NCBI GenBank assembly: GCA_026414605.1
Contig: JAOAIP010000021.1
Coordinates: forward strand, 1-64,000
Length of the DNA: 64,000 nt
Reading direction: 5' to 3'
Origin: Bacteroidia bacterium
Lineage (GTDB): Bacteria; Bacteroidota; Bacteroidia; B-17B0; Aurantibacillaceae
The notes under the pieces are model-generated. The model made no database searches. It was given only the letters and a program-made list of their open reading frames with translations, and had not been told where the DNA came from. Shown in pieces: positions 561 through 59,896 of the stretch. The translations under genes and the position numbers were made by a program. Position 1 is the stretch's first letter, and every line of letters begins with the position of its first letter.

Positions 561-1133
561 ATGAGTAAATATCCTGTAAAAAAGCCAAGTAAAATTGAAA
601 TTGTAAAAGCACCTGATGGATTAGAAGGTCCGGGATTTTTTGCTACTTCATTAGAAAAGGTTGTAGGATTAGCAAGGAAAAATTCACTTTGGCCATTGCC
701 TTTTGCTACTTCGTGTTGCGGTATTGAATTTATGGCTACGATGGCTTCTACTTATGATTTAGCAAGATTTGGTTCAGAACGACTTTCATTCTCGCCCCGA
801 CAAGCCGACTTGCTAATGGTGATGGGAACAATTGCCAAAAAAATGGGACCTACACTTCGTCAGGTATATGAGCAAATGGCGGAGCCGAAGTGGGTACTTT
901 CAGTAGGAGCGTGTGCCAGCAGTGGTGGTATTTTTGATACTTATAGTGTATTACAAGGCATTGATAGAATAATCCCTGTGGATGTCTATGTACCGGGCTG
1001 TCCACCAAGACCTGAACAAATCATTGAAGGTATTTTGAAAATTCAACAATTGGCAGAAAATGAATCTTTGAGAAGAAGAGATTCTGTGCAATACAAGAAA
1101 ATGCTTGAGAGTTATGGCATAGAAGTTCAATAG
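561..1133 (+). CDS. nuoB: NADH-quinone oxidoreductase subunit B
   Basis: Peripheral-arm subunit of respiratory complex I that carries the terminal [4Fe-4S] cluster N2, which hands electrons to quinone. The 190-residue product has all four expected ligands: adjacent Cys52-Cys53 in ATSCCGIEF, Cys118 in VGACASSGG and Cys147 in PGCPPRPE. Length is normal for the family. In most Bacteroidota nuoC follows directly; here a 719 bp gap filled by repeat DNA intervenes, so co-transcription with nuoC must read through that insert. Identification is secure. Confidence 0.97.
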
Positions 1134-1194
1134 ATGAACTCTTTATAAAAGTGGAAAGTGAAAAGTGGAAAGTGGAAAGTGAAATTTGAAGAAT

Positions 1195-1320
1195 ATGAAA
1201 ATACAGAGATTTGAAGGTATCATTGCTTGGCAAAGAGTAAAGGATTTAGGTGTCAGTATTTATACTGATTTTCTGTAAATAAAGATTTTTGATTTAAAGA
1301 TCAAATTCAACGATCGGAAA
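1195..1320 (+). pseudogene. Truncated, frameshifted four-helix-bundle (23S rRNA IVS-type) gene remnant
   Basis: The frame opens MKIQRFEGIIAWQRVKDLGV and stops at TAA 1276-1278. The opening matches the N-terminus of the four-helix-bundle / 23S rRNA intervening-sequence protein family (PF05635 type), normally about 115-125 residues. Compared with the copy near 14.2 kb it has lost one base near 1269, which causes the stop; in another frame the family motif FKDQIQRS is still readable up to about 1316. Coding similarity ends there and heptamers begin, so the rest of the gene is missing, not merely mutated. Confidence 0.7.
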
Positions 1321-1365
1321 AACTTTCTACTTTCAACTTTTGACTTTTAACTGAAGTTTGCGTGA

Positions 1366-1481
1366 TTTACTCACCCCCTTTTATTCCCCCTCTCTAACTC
1401 TGTTAGAGAGGGGGACAATTGAATAAAACAACTTTCGCATCGCCCCTCTCTTTTTCAAAAAGAGAGGGGATGGGGGTGAGT
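1366..1481. mobile_element. Nested palindromic insertion with 7 bp direct repeats
   Basis: This 116 bp insert is bounded by TGCGTGA at 1359-1365 and again at 1482-1488. It has inverted ends ACTCACCCCC (1369-1378) and GGGGGTGAGT (1472-1481) and two internal hairpins: CCTCTCTAAC/GTTAGAGAGG and CCCCTCTCTTTTT/AAAAAGAGAGGGG. The inverted composite copy at 14131-14137 has a single TCACGCA at the equivalent place with no insert, so it is the empty site. It is too short to code for a transposase and would have moved in trans. Confidence 0.75.
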
Positions 1482-1852
1482 TGCGTGAGGGATGCGGAGG
1501 GCGGCGGTGAGCGAAGCGAACCGCCGGCACTGCCTCGCCTTCGTTAGTCATCGTCATTACGAGGGCGTAGCCCGAAGTAATCTCTAATTAGGACGAATGT
1601 CAATTCCTTTTGAGATTGCTTCACTTCGTTCGCAATGACATTAAGGCGAGGATTGCCGAAGCGATAGCGAAGCCCGTAGCAGCCCGACCCGAGCGAAGTG
1701 GCACAGCCACGAGCGAGGGGCACGCCCAAATAAATAAGAAAAGAATTTTAAATATTTGTGTAAGTAAAGATACAGCAGAAAGGCAGAGGAAAAGTGGCTC
1801 TAAGTTTGTGGCTTGAAAATATAAAAAAATATAAACATTAAAAATTACCTTT

Positions 1853-2386
1853 ATGCGTAGAAAAGTTCAGATACCTGTTGATGAGAAACAAAAACAATTA
1901 TTAGAAGAAATTCAACAGGATATTCAACAACAATTTCCTAATGCTTTGATTTCTGCGGAATTGCCGTATAATTTTCCAACACTTACTATTCATCATCATT
2001 TTATTAAAGATGTTTTGAAATACTTGAAAGAAAGCCCAAAGTGGAATTTCTTTTTCTTAACGGACTTGACAGGTATTCAAACGCCTGATGAACAGCATTT
2101 GGGCGTGATTTATCATTTGCATAATATGATAACCAATCATAGAGTAAGAGTAAAAACATTTTTTGGGATAGATAAACCTGAAATACCTACGGTAACAGAT
2201 CTTTGGAAAACTGCTAATTGGATGGAAAGAGAAACATACGATTTTTTTGGTATTATATTCAAAGGACATCCTGATTTGAGAAGGATATTAAATCCTGATG
2301 AAATGGATATTTTTCCTTTGAGAAAAGAATTTCCTGTAGAAGATCAAACTCGTGAAGATAAAGATGATACTATGTTTGGTAGATGA
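1853..2386 (+). CDS. nuoC: NADH-quinone oxidoreductase subunit C
   Basis: Complex I peripheral-arm subunit (30 kDa subunit family), 177 residues. The family signature is ERETYDFFGIIFKGHPDLRR near residues 125-145, followed by the typical PLRKEFPVED segment. NuoC and NuoD are separate genes here, not fused as in Escherichia coli. Upstream is the composite repeat. Its TGA stop overlaps the ATG of the MNT gene (ATGATGA), so translation of the toxin-antitoxin pair may be coupled to nuoC. Confidence 0.95.
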   Translation: MRRKVQIPVDEKQKQLLEEIQQDIQQQFPNALISAELPYNFPTLTIHHHFIKDVLKYLKESPKWNFFFLTDLTGIQTPDEQHLGVIYHLHNMITNHRVRVKTFFGIDKPEIPTVTDLWKTANWMERETYDFFGIIFKGHPDLRRILNPDEMDIFPLRKEFPVEDQTREDKDDTMFGR

Positions 2387-2727
2387 TGACAAACGATTCA
2401 ATATACTTTGATAATGCTTTATTAGAATTGCAGAACATATTCAAAAAATTTTTTGATAAATCATCAAAAGAGGTAGTAGTGTATTTATTTGGATCAAGAG
2501 TGCGTAATGATTTTTTGAGGACATCGGATATAGATATAGCAATTAAGAATATCAGTAAGTTAGAGAAAGCATTATTGGAAGAAGCCATTGATGAATCTAA
2601 TATCATTTACAAAGTAGATGTGTCTTTATGGGAAGAATTACCCAAAGAATTAAAAGAAGAAATTTTGAAAGAAGGTAAAATTATTTATAGAAATGATAGA
2701 ACTGAAGAAGTCCACAGAATTATTTGA
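2383..2727 (+). CDS. MNT-type nucleotidyltransferase, antitoxin of a HEPN-MNT pair
   Basis: A 114-residue minimal nucleotidyltransferase. The motif GSRVRNDF followed by SDIDIAI supplies the GS and paired Asp of the polymerase-beta fold, with a third acidic strand VDVSLWEEL about 40 residues later. In HEPN-MNT modules this protein modifies or masks the HEPN partner to neutralise it; that role is inferred from family and pairing. Start may be the ATG at 2383 or 2386. It overlaps both nuoC and the HEPN gene, which is typical of a tightly coupled module. Confidence 0.85.
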   Translation: MMTNDSIYFDNALLELQNIFKKFFDKSSKEVVVYLFGSRVRNDFLRTSDIDIAIKNISKLEKALLEEAIDESNIIYKVDVSLWEELPKELKEEILKEGKIIYRNDRTEEVHRII

Positions 2728-3097
2728 AAAGTCCTTGCAAACATTGACAGATATTTTGCAACAAAGAAAGAAATCTGTGGATAAAGATATTTTAAGAGAT
2801 GCTACAATTCAACGATTTGAATACAATGCGGATGTATTTTGGAAATTACTAAAAGTATTTTTATTTCATCAACACGGAATGGCTTGTCAATCGCCTAAAT
2901 CGTGTATTCGTGAAGCATTTAATAATGGACTTGTCAACGAACAGGAATGTGCGCTATTGCTTGAAATGATGGATGATAGAAATTTGACATCGCATACTTA
3001 CCATTTTGATTTATTTGAAAAGATATTCATCAAAATTATTGATTACGAAAAAATAATGAGGGAAGTATTGAACAGAATAAAAAACTCAATCAATTAA
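2693..3097 (+). CDS. HEPN-domain protein (HI0074-like), toxin of a HEPN-MNT pair
   Basis: A 134-residue helical protein of the nucleotidyltransferase substrate-binding / HI0074 family. The expected RX4H-type active motif is present as RNLTSHTYH at about residues 97-105, so the RNase-like site looks intact. The ATG at 2693 lies within the MNT gene (35 bp overlap). Known relatives act as RNases or are AMPylated by their MNT partner. Its setting between nuoC and nuoD is unusual. The next gene, nuoD, starts 33 bp later. Confidence 0.85.
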   Translation: MIELKKSTELFEKSLQTLTDILQQRKKSVDKDILRDATIQRFEYNADVFWKLLKVFLFHQHGMACQSPKSCIREAFNNGLVNEQECALLLEMMDDRNLTSHTYHFDLFEKIFIKIIDYEKIMREVLNRIKNSIN

Positions 3098-3130
3098 GAG
3101 ATATTTCAACAAAAATAAAAAGCAAAAATT

Positions 3131-4390
3131 ATGGCAACTAAAATTAAAACTAAAGAAAAAAACAATGTTGTTTCTCAAAAAGAGATTTTGCAACAGGAGA
3201 TATTAAAAGATGAAAAAGTATACACTACATTAAATTTAGGGCCTACGCATCCTGCGACACACGGGATATTTCAGAATATCTTGACAATGGATGGAGAATT
3301 TATAGTAAAAAGTGATCCCACCATTGGATACATTCATAGAGCATTTGAAAAATTAGCCGAAAAATTGGCTTATTATCAAATTCGTGTATTGACCGACAGA
3401 TTGAACTACTGCTCATCGCCTATCAATAATATGGGATGGGATATGACTGTGGAAAAATTGCTCAATGTTGAAGTTCCCAAGCGTGTACAGTATATGCGTG
3501 TGATTATAATGGAATTAGCAAGAATAGCCGATCATTTGATATGTAATTCGGTGATAGGTGTAGATACAGGGGCAATGACAGGATTTTTGTATGTTTTTCA
3601 ATGGCGTGAAAAGATCTACGATATTTATGAAAGTATCTGTGGGGCAAGATTGACCACCAATATAGGGCGTGTTGGCGGATTTGAAAGAGATTGGAGTCCT
3701 AAAACGTGGGAGTTGATTCGTCAATTTGTAAAAGAATTTCCTGCAGCATTTCAAGAGTTTTGTGATTTATTAGAACGGAATAAGATATTTATGGACAGAA
3801 CTATTAATGTAGGTCCAATAAGTGCAGAAGATGCTTTAAGTTATGGATTTACAGGTCCTAATTTGAGAGCGGCGGGTGTAGATTATGATGTTCGTGTAGC
3901 ACAGCCCTATTGTTCTTATGATGAATTTGAATTTGACATTCCTGTAGGAACGAATGGTGATACGTATGATCGCTTTATGGTAAGGCAAGAAGAAGTATGG
4001 CAAAGTGTGAGAATCATTGAACAAGCATTGAAGAAAATAGATGCATTGGAGGATAAAACAAGTTATTGTGCAGATATTCCCAATTATTATTTACCGCCCA
4101 AAGAACAGGTTTATAATGATATGGAAAGTTTGATTTATCAATTCAAAATAATTATGGGAGAAGTGGATATTCCTGAAGGAGAAGTGTATCATTGTGTAGA
4201 AGGGGCTAATGGGGAATTAGGATTTTATGTAGTAAGTGATGGAGGAAGAAGTCCATATAGATTGCATTTTAGAAGACCTTGTTTTATTTATTATCAGGCC
4301 TACCCAGAAATGATCAAGGGGTCTTTATTATCTGATGCTATCATTACAATGAGTAGTATGAATGTAATTGCGGGTGAATTAGATGCATAG
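3131..4390 (+). CDS. nuoD: NADH-quinone oxidoreductase subunit D
   Basis: The 49 kDa-type subunit of complex I, which together with NuoB forms the quinone site. The 419-residue product has NLGPTHPATHG near residues 35-45 (quinone-headgroup loop), GRVGGFERDW mid-protein and a family-typical end (GELDA). The Lys/Glu-rich first 25 residues are a normal variable extension. It should be followed by nuoE, but the next gene is a polysaccharide glycosyltransferase on the opposite strand, so the complex I operon is broken here. Confidence 0.97.
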   Translation: MATKIKTKEKNNVVSQKEILQQEILKDEKVYTTLNLGPTHPATHGIFQNILTMDGEFIVKSDPTIGYIHRAFEKLAEKLAYYQIRVLTDRLNYCSSPINNMGWDMTVEKLLNVEVPKRVQYMRVIIMELARIADHLICNSVIGVDTGAMTGFLYVFQWREKIYDIYESICGARLTTNIGRVGGFERDWSPKTWELIRQFVKEFPAAFQEFCDLLERNKIFMDRTINVGPISAEDALSYGFTGPNLRAAGVDYDVRVAQPYCSYDEFEFDIPVGTNGDTYDRFMVRQEEVWQSVRIIEQALKKIDALEDKTSYCADIPNYYLPPKEQVYNDMESLIYQFKIIMGEVDIPEGEVYHCVEGANGELGFYVVSDGGRSPYRLHFRRPCFIYYQAYPEMIKGSLLSDAIITMSSMNVIAGELDA

Positions 4391-4459
4391 AAGTGTGATC
4401 GAATAAATGTGGGAATATTTTATTACGTTGTACCTATTTTGATAGGTAAATTTAATCGT

Positions 4460-4606
4460 AAATATCACGAAGAAATAATTAGTTAAAAGTAGAAAGCGAA
4501 ATGTAGAAAGTTTTTGCTACTAAAATTTTTATTCACCTAATCACAAAAATATGCCTATCTACTTTTATACTTTCAACTTTCTACTAATAAGTTCTTTGTG
4601 GTAAAT
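4460..4606. repeat. MITE-like element with imperfect terminal inverted repeats
   Basis: The left end ATCACGAAGAAATAATTAGT (about 4464-4483) is an imperfect inverted copy of the right end ACTAATAAGTTCTTTGTGGT (4583-4602). Just inside are heptamers (AAAAGTAGAAAG at left, CTTTCAACTTTCT at right). The right terminus recurs at 31.9, 58.9 and 59.7 kb. There is no coding capacity. It lies exactly where the complex I operon stops and the polysaccharide locus begins. Confidence 0.7.
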
Positions 4607-4629
4607 TAATTTGGTCAGTAAAATTATTT

Positions 4630-13736: not shown

Positions 13737-14385
<649 letters not shown>

Positions 14386-14390
<5 letters not shown>

Positions 14391-15456
14391 TTCCATCACT
14401 CATTCCTACGGCTACACCATTTTTCTTCAAAAGATATTTAGGGCGTGAAGCATAGATTCGTTCTATGATATTCACTACTTTTAATCCCTCCAAAGCATTG
14501 GTTGTAGCAGTGTGTTTGCCCTTCAAGGTTTCCACCACATTTTCAATAACATAATGATGATTGTTGGCAGAACCTTTGTATGATCCATAGTCATTAGCAG
14601 GATTAGTGGGCGGCAATTCAGGCATAACATAATCTTTGATGTGACAATACTCCACCTTATCCATATATTGCCCTCCTACCTTTACCGAACCCTTACTACC
14701 AATCACTGTAATAGAAGATTCCAAATTTTTATCCCATACAGCAGTAGAATAATTTATACATCCTATTCCTTGATTGACAAATTCAAACTGCACTAATCCA
14801 CTGTCTTCAAAGTCCGTCAAATGCTGATGATTAAAATCCGCAAAAGTACCTTTGATATTTGTAATATCTCCAAAAATCCAATACAGCAAATCTATCCAAT
14901 GCGAAAATTGCGTAAACAAAGTACCTCCATCTAATTCTTGTGTTCCTTTCCAATTCTTTCCTGTATAATATCTTTCATCTCTGTTCCAATAACAATTTAG
15001 TTGTACAATATAAATATCCCCAATAATTTTTTTATCTACAATTTCTTTCAGCCATTGAGAAGGCGGTGAGTATCTATTTTGCATCACACAAAACACTTGC
15101 TTATGGTACTTTAATGCAGTATAAATGATTTTTTCTGCGTCTTGTGTTGTAAGAGCCAAAGGTTTTTCTACCACCACATGCTTTTGATGAGATAAACAAT
15201 CAATGGCTTGTTGAGCGTGCAATCCATTAGGAGTACAGATATTCACCACTTCTATTTCAGGATGTTGCTTTAGCATTTCCAAATAATCCTGATAAAATGG
15301 TTCTTTTAAATCCTTTAATCCTAAAACACTTTTATCTTGAACATCACACACCGCCACTAATTCACAATGCGGATTTCTTCTTATCATTTCTGCATGTCTC
15401 TTGCCTATATGACCTTGACCTATGACTGCAAATTTTATTTTATTATTCATAAACAA
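14386..15456 (-). CDS. Gfo/Idh/MocA oxidoreductase, WbpB-like
   Basis: A 356-residue NAD(P)-dependent sugar dehydrogenase. The Rossmann motif is VIGQGHIGKRHAEMI, the catalytic EKP motif is VVEKPLALT near residue 96, and the C-terminal domain has the usual beta-sheet with GGTLFTQFSHWIDLLYW. With a wbpD-like acetyltransferase 21 bases upstream and a WbpA-type dehydrogenase downstream, 3-oxidation of a UDP-GlcNAc-uronate is the likely reaction. Start is the ATG at 15456 or the one at 15450 (MNNKIKF). Its last codons GGA-AAG-TAG merge with the heptamer array, which supplies the stop. Confidence 0.85.
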
Positions 15457-31810: not shown

Positions 31811-31880
31811 ACCTCAAAAACAGAATTTGCTAAAGCAACGAAACGAATATAATTGAAAAAGTTACGAATTAGATTACTAT

Positions 31881-32010
31881 TTTACCACAAAGAACACATT
31901 AGTGAAAAGTAGAAAGTTACAAGTTTGAAAGCAGAAAGAATTTTTTCAATTTAATGATGTAGCGTTCAAATACTTTTCACTTTGAACTTTCAACTAATTA
32001 TTGTGGTTAA
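31881..32010. repeat. Heptamer-flanked MITE-like element
   Basis: Begins TTTACCACAAAGAACACATTAGT, then AAAAGTAGAAAGTT heptamers, a core TTCAATTTAATGATGTAGCG, reverse heptamers (ACTTTTCACTTTGAACTTTC) and an imperfect inverted end ACTAATTATTGTGGTTAA. It matches the element at 58844-58971 in the opposite orientation from end to end, core included. Confidence 0.75.
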
Positions 32011-32043
32011 GTTTAAAGTGATGAATAGTAATACAAAAAATAA

Positions 32044-58759: not shown

Positions 58760-58843
58760 TCCTCTTAAAAGAGACCGCAAAATAACACAATGATTTTGGC
58801 TTTTGAAAATTAAAAAATTGTGTATTTATCCAAATTCCTCAAA

Positions 58844-58971
58844 CTTAATAATTAGTTCAAAGTAAAAAGTAAAAAGTATTAAAACGCTACATCATTAAAT
58901 TGAAAAATATTTCCTTTTACTTTCAAACTTGTAACTTTTCACTTTTTACTAATGTGTTCTTTGTGGTAAAA
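58844..58971. repeat. Heptamer-flanked MITE-like element (inverted relative to 31.9 kb copy)
   Basis: Runs from AATAATTAGTTCAAAG through AAAAAGT heptamers, a core CGCTACATCATTAAATTGAA, reverse heptamers and the terminus ACTAATGTGTTCTTTGTGGTAAA (58948-58970). The reverse complement aligns with 31881-32010 along its whole length. Confidence 0.75.
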
Positions 58972-58995
58972 TATAATGAAAACAACAAGAATAAG

Positions 58996-59647: not shown

Positions 59648-59730
59648 TCCTTATACTTTTTTACTTTATACTTTTTTACTTTCAAACTTTTCACTTTCCA
59701 CTTTTTACTAATGTGTTCTTTGTAATAAAA
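59648..59730. repeat. Partial heptamer element
   Basis: Reverse heptamers (TACTTTTTTACTTTATAC, then CTTTTCACTTTCCACTTTTT) lead to the terminus ACTAATGTGTTCTTTGTAATAAA, nearly the same end as at 58971. No matching left end is seen, so one half is missing. The rest of the 488 bp gap (59460-59947) holds only the glutamine synthetase promoter and A+T-rich sequence. Confidence 0.6.
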
Positions 59731-59896
59731 AATGACAATAATAGAAATTACAAATCTATAACACATTCTGTGATAAAATCTTTTTTCCTTCATAAAAAAT
59801 ATTTTCCAATAAAAAAATAAAATTCTACTAAAAAACCAAACATTTTTAAAAACACCCCCATCAAAATACACTATTAAAATAAAAAAATATTATTTT

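Follow-up and report, generated by a model that had tools for sequence, protein, structure and literature searches.

What kind of repeat is the short element found at positions 31861..32031 (+) of the 64,000-nucleotide stretch of Bacteroidia DNA analysed here (the window), and which machinery has moved it? The first-pass annotation placed this element at 31881-32010, and read it, together with three relatives, as a family of MITEs that have a terminus in common and were moved in trans by the machinery of the four-helix-bundle gene fragments found in the same window. Those limits proved to be too short, as the conserved unit extends outwards to the terminal inverted repeats GTTACTACTCAG and CTGAGTAGTAAC. 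The aligned copies have a single architecture, GTTACTACTCAG-GTTATATTTT-ACCACAAAGAACAC-ATTAGT-[NNAAAGT]n-core-[ACTTTNN]n-ACTAAT-TATTGTGGTTAAGTTTGAAGTG-CTGAGTAGTAAC, with a length of ~165-215 bp. The terminal repeats are imperfect and enclose inner arrays that are also inverted, the information content falls to the background level immediately beyond the 12-bp ends on both sides, and the length of the arrays varies by multiples of 7. Some copies have a different core, or a right arm that is partly replaced by a GC-rich repeat.

The complete copy in the window begins with an outer inverted end (31861..31872, +; a diverged copy of GTTACTACTCAG), which is followed by the terminus ACCACAAAGAACACATTAGT (31884..31903, +), whose final AGT is the truncated first unit of the left AAAGT heptamer array (31901..31939, +). 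The non-coding core (31940..31974, +) is common to most of the copies and has no match in other loci, and the element is closed by the inverted right array (31972..31994, -) and the right end AATTATTGTGGTTAAGTTTAAAGTGATGAATAGTAA, which includes the second outer inverted end (31995..32031, +). Rfam returned no match within the window. With up to three mismatches allowed, the window has four matches to ACCACAAAGAACACATTAGT (4583, 31884, 58948, and 59707), where shuffling predicts 0.01, which confirms that the common terminus is real. The end-to-end alignment of the copies at 31881 and 58844, in opposite orientation, was also recovered (88%; C69:58847-58973, minus strand, E 4.8e-40), the second copy (58836..58989, -) being without its right outer end. 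The two other relatives proposed, at 4460 and 59648, are borne out by the terminus matches at 4583 and 59707, but the former is a diverged copy with a different core (4452..4622, -), while the latter is one-ended, being formed by the terminus and an array (59648..59750, -).

The search of the 2.48 Mb genome with the window copy (BLAST, E<1e-12) recovered ~40 places with a miniature, which provides the additional copies that the first-pass annotation had predicted, and the terminus, with up to three mismatches, was found 39 times in the genome, compared with once for its reversed control. All 36 copies checked are intergenic, with no overlap with any ORF that reaches 90 aa. Compared over 400 bp, the left flanks show no relationship between copies, with the exception of a single pair (L030 and L035), which has 244 bp of left flank in common at 87%, and the right flanks of the complete copies have no similarity to each other. 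Where the copies lie between co-directional genes, 16 are antisense and three are sense (36 copies). Target-site duplications, which had also been proposed as a check, were sought in the 17 both-ended copies by a permutation test over 891 choices of length and offset, and none was found (best z 2.5).

The miniature is present in this genome only, among the 60 genomes compared (its own and those of its relatives), and the weak matches obtained in the relatives were rejected as unrelated AT-rich sequence. The exact 20-mer terminus has no match in the viral contigs or in the genome contigs, a collection with one genome per species from 84,980 species, from which the window's own genome may have been left out. 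In two genus mates, the gene adjoining the window copy has no neighbouring element, but the broken synteny there means that this cannot count as a clean empty site. Overall, the evidence supports the miniatures as a dispersed, non-coding family of inverted repeats, with the size, copy number, and inverted ends of MITEs.

The genome contains one intact S23 gene (C48:9002-9343; PF05635, E 6e-35), for which the nearest solved structures are 2gsc and 2rld, as well as nine 5' fragments of S23, two of them in the window, and all ten of these loci lie between AAAGT arrays. The first-pass annotation was thus correct in observing that the same heptamer arrays border the four-helix-bundle fragments of the window, which are found at 1148..1353 (+), with a broken frame and the common deletion junction, and at 14142..14395 (-). 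The nine fragments share the deletion junction between CGATCGG and AARAAACTTTC, with single-base changes in some of them and a short local duplication in three, and their left flanks are unrelated. A single defective copy of S23 was therefore multiplied, and these fragments show that a deletion derivative has spread here to nine places without a complete gene of its own. The right sides of the nine fragments have a GC-rich repeat in common, which has travelled along with them. In the window, GC-rich composite repeats (GCGTGAGGGATGCGGAGGGCGGC...GGGCACGCCC), which recur in the genome, adjoin the fragments at 1355-1816 and 13740-14140. The region at 561-4390 contains genes named by their sequence as nuoB-, nuoC-, and nuoD-like, which are separated by insertions, one being the S23-fragment composite (~1139-1816), and the other, a nucleotidyltransferase/NTase_sub_bind pair (2383-3097). 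The miniatures contain no PF05635 coding, being non-coding, and their core, when considered as a piece of the known S23 loci, found no match.

The relationship between the AAAGT word and the S23 gene was assessed in 78 loci whose S23 is 59-76% identical to the intact one, drawn from the 84,980-species collection and including records of KSB1, Neomarinimicrobiota, Patescibacteria, Omnitrophota, and Ignavibacteria. Repeats of AAAGT with a spacing of 7 or 9 bases are found upstream, on the S23 strand, in 58 of the 78 usable loci (reverse, 5), inverted downstream in 58 (reverse, 11), and on both sides in 51 (reverse control, 3), and the two-sided count in the more distant S23 loci is 1 of 27. Chains directly next to the gene, on the expected strand, were recorded upstream in 54/78 cases (5 on the other strand) and downstream in 60/79 (10), the signal being concentrated in the ~100 bp next to the gene, with almost none over the rest of the 1.4 kb. 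At least one array is present at 17 of the 18 non-Bacteroidota loci. The distant S23s have period-7 words of their own, which are also inverted on the two sides, with a word similarity of 0.214 within loci versus 0.010 between them. This similarity climbs with the identity of the S23 proteins, from 0.007 (<30%) to 0.66 (>80%), and word and protein are correlated (Mantel r=0.63; permutation maximum 0.25).

There are 288 pattern matches for AAAGT arrays in this genome, 0-1 in three genus mates, and no more than 42 in 56 other relatives, while an S23 more than 57% identical to the query is found in this genome alone, among this and 59 related genomes, which is a single-genome comparison. By these sequence comparisons, AAAGT is the array word particular to the S23 lineage that the genome's single intact gene belongs to. 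A search of the literature, with incomplete coverage, found no report of heptamer words being tied to S23 lineages. Inverted arrays of a lineage word as the termini of S23 elements are a feature established in the present analysis, and the miniatures have the same AAAGT word, in the same orientation, with the first unit cut to AGT. This truncation of the outermost unit is seen in 68 of 112 S23 flanks, and in 28/35 left and 17/17 right arrays of the miniatures. The S23-element nature of the ends of the inner part of the miniature is well supported. No target-site duplication was seen at AGT...ACT in 22 S23 elements of the AAAGT lineage.

The mobility of S23 units is apparent on the plasmids of the Nostocales, where S23 genes are bordered on both sides by heptamer arrays, inverted relative to each other, of words such as TCAGAAG, GGGAACA, and GGGAGTA. 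Plasmid C of Trichormus variabilis is occupied at a site that is empty in the plasmids of Nostoc linckia and Fremyella, with flanks 98-99% identical (98.8% in Nostoc linckia), and the empty sequence AAAAAGTAATTAAC corresponds to the occupied AAAAA-GTAAT-[unit]-GTAAT-TAAC, that is, a 5-bp duplication. In Nostoc sp. ATCC 53789, plasmids pNsp_a and pNsp_c have reciprocal occupied and empty sites, one with a duplication of TTCTA, and the other with TTA and a little over 30 additional bases on its right side. The insertions are placed downstream of a stop codon and ahead of the start that follows. A further cyanobacterial candidate, site B, was rejected as not being a clean empty site. The alignments of occupied and empty sites show the S23-unit class to be mobile, but they refer to the class rather than to the AAAGT miniatures, because other lineages and other words are involved. 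On one Nostoc plasmid (L326, 495-800), the site that is occupied by an S23 unit in related plasmids has heptamer arrays surrounding a non-coding core instead, and this gene-less unit is a natural parallel to the miniatures. Another Nostoc plasmid (L329, 490-690) has a truncated S23 unit where its relatives hold an intact one. In three loci, the S23 unit comes directly after a gene that is named as an iron-sulfur assembly accessory gene in L318 and, judging by its end, is the same in L284 and L285, which suggests a long-lived site. The phage records contained no S23 match.

Given this, the account that we favour, by a little more than an even chance, is that the miniatures belong to the S23 (IVP) class as non-autonomous members, set in an additional outer layer and most likely multiplied in trans. 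An S23 element, in this account, is a small unit (~400-580 bp in the AAAGT lineage) with one four-helix-bundle gene between inverted arrays of a short, lineage-specific word, repeated 7 or 9 bases apart, and inserts into intergenic gaps, often directly after a stop codon. The S23 protein may bind the word, either in DNA or in the form of an RNA hairpin, and, together with host factors, would drive the movement, with the miniatures making use of the same protein. In this species, which has an S23 gene of the AAAGT lineage, array-ended units without a gene (the miniatures) or with a 5' remnant alone have increased in number, probably through factors supplied in trans. The outer GTTACT/ACCACAAAG layer may be an older repeat into which an AAAGT unit fell, and which has travelled along since then. 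We know of no enzymatic activity of S23.

The movement in trans by the four-helix-bundle machinery, as originally proposed, is thus favoured by circumstantial evidence, namely the lineage-specific word, the mobility of S23 units elsewhere, and the spread of the deletion derivative, but the outer layer is not S23-like, and neither target-site duplications nor a larger coding element were found. The terminus named by the first-pass annotation (ACCACAAAG...) is common to the miniatures, but is not a feature of the S23 elements. The conserved moving unit terminates at GTTACT...GTAAC, and not at the AAAGT arrays, and the GTTACT/ACCACAAAG layer does not accompany S23 genes elsewhere. The CACAAAG repeats of this layer, considered as a possible companion of S23, have no association with S23 genes elsewhere. 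The miniatures also have no duplication at their ends, whereas the cleanest cyanobacterial cases show one of 5 bp. The simplest reading is that the S23 machinery moved the unit, but this falls short of proof, because what has spread includes an outer layer that was observed on no S23 element.

This outer layer may otherwise be the mark of a classical MITE, in which the GTTACTACTCAG ends would be recognised by some DNA transposase, perhaps since lost, and the AAAGT arrays would be passengers by nesting, an alternative that we consider unlikely, although less so than those below. The sharp outer boundaries and the 12-bp inverted ends are as expected for such an element, and some elements with these outer ends carry other cores, but the larger element with the same ends and a coding core that the first-pass annotation had proposed to look for was not found in the 96%-complete assembly, where the matches to the outer left end (22), the outer right end (20), and the inner left end (39), with the unpaired ones being read, included no coding core. 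The lack of a target-site duplication is also unfavourable, as is the absence from the genome of Y1_Tnp (PF01797, 0 matches) and PDDEXK_3/GxxExxY, which rules out both as the movers; the profile search covered these two families.

Passive spread through gene conversion, ectopic recombination, and slippage among the hundreds of AAAGT arrays, with no dedicated machinery, would account for the mosaic, modular copies joined at the arrays, the steps of 7 in the number of units, and the pair with 244 bp of flank in common. This is improbable, given that the other flanks are unrelated and the boundaries are sharp, and it would leave the tie between the word and the S23 protein unexplained. It is even less probable that the miniatures are hairpins of RNA or DNA kept by the host for processing, attenuation, or termination, rather than selfish elements. 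Both strands do fold better than shuffled sequences (z -3.3 and -3.4), the two arms of a copy pair with each other a little better than arms that have been exchanged (p 0.0145), and the 16 to 3 bias in orientation is compatible with such a role, but inverted arrays alone predict folding, and the miniatures are patchy in their presence, being absent from the genus mates.

S23 proteins are present in 52 of the 60 genomes sampled and, to our knowledge, have no assigned function. It is conceivable, and is put forward here with slightly more reserve than confidence, that S23 marks out a class of mobile DNA with a very wide distribution, in which the sole gene encodes a four-helix bundle of ~110 residues that reads a lineage-specific word of 7-9 bases arrayed at the two ends of the element, in which case the heptamer arrays of Bacteroidota and cyanobacteria, with or without the gene, would be the footprints of the class, and the miniatures a gene-less form of it. 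The link between S23 and its word carries more weight than the miniature repeat family itself. A protein-specific word code and natural empty sites make the function of S23 accessible to binding and mobility tests, and such a code could explain heptamer-array repeats that have been described piecemeal across several phyla.

The heptanucleotide STRRs of cyanobacteria such as Nostoc and Calothrix are abundant intergenic heptamer arrays, which the cyanobacterial S23 words (L311-L317) presumably resemble, a link that is only suggested by the Nostocales plasmid loci. The TAACTGA arrays of the Beggiatoaceae are likewise abundant, intergenic, and heptameric, and were described with no mention of a link to S23 (PMC4679880). 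The REP/REPIN sequences, which have RAYT transposases, are also short, intergenic palindromic repeats moved in trans (PMC3116915, PMC3733652), whereas the repeats described here have arrays instead of short palindromes, and no Y1 transposase was detected in this genome. BrickBuilt of Porphyromonas gingivalis, with ~20 copies, is an intergenic MITE of the Bacteroidota that also has tandem repeats inside inverted ends, although these are 23-nt direct repeats and IS5-like GAGACC ends, rather than the inverted 7-mer arrays and GTTACTACTCAG ends of the miniatures (PMC4596501). In Coxiella burnetii, the S23/IVP element is an intervening sequence of the 23S rRNA, in contrast with the intergenic position, the lack of a gene, and the outer layer of the miniatures, and its S23 protein has been described as probably not expressed (PMC4990558). 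This element, which has been described as selfish, nevertheless has an S23 four-helix-bundle gene, hairpin-forming ends, and heptameric GACAGAT repeats before the S23 ORF, which are a precedent in the literature for the word arrays, and in these features it resembles the S23 elements of the present genome (PMC4990558).
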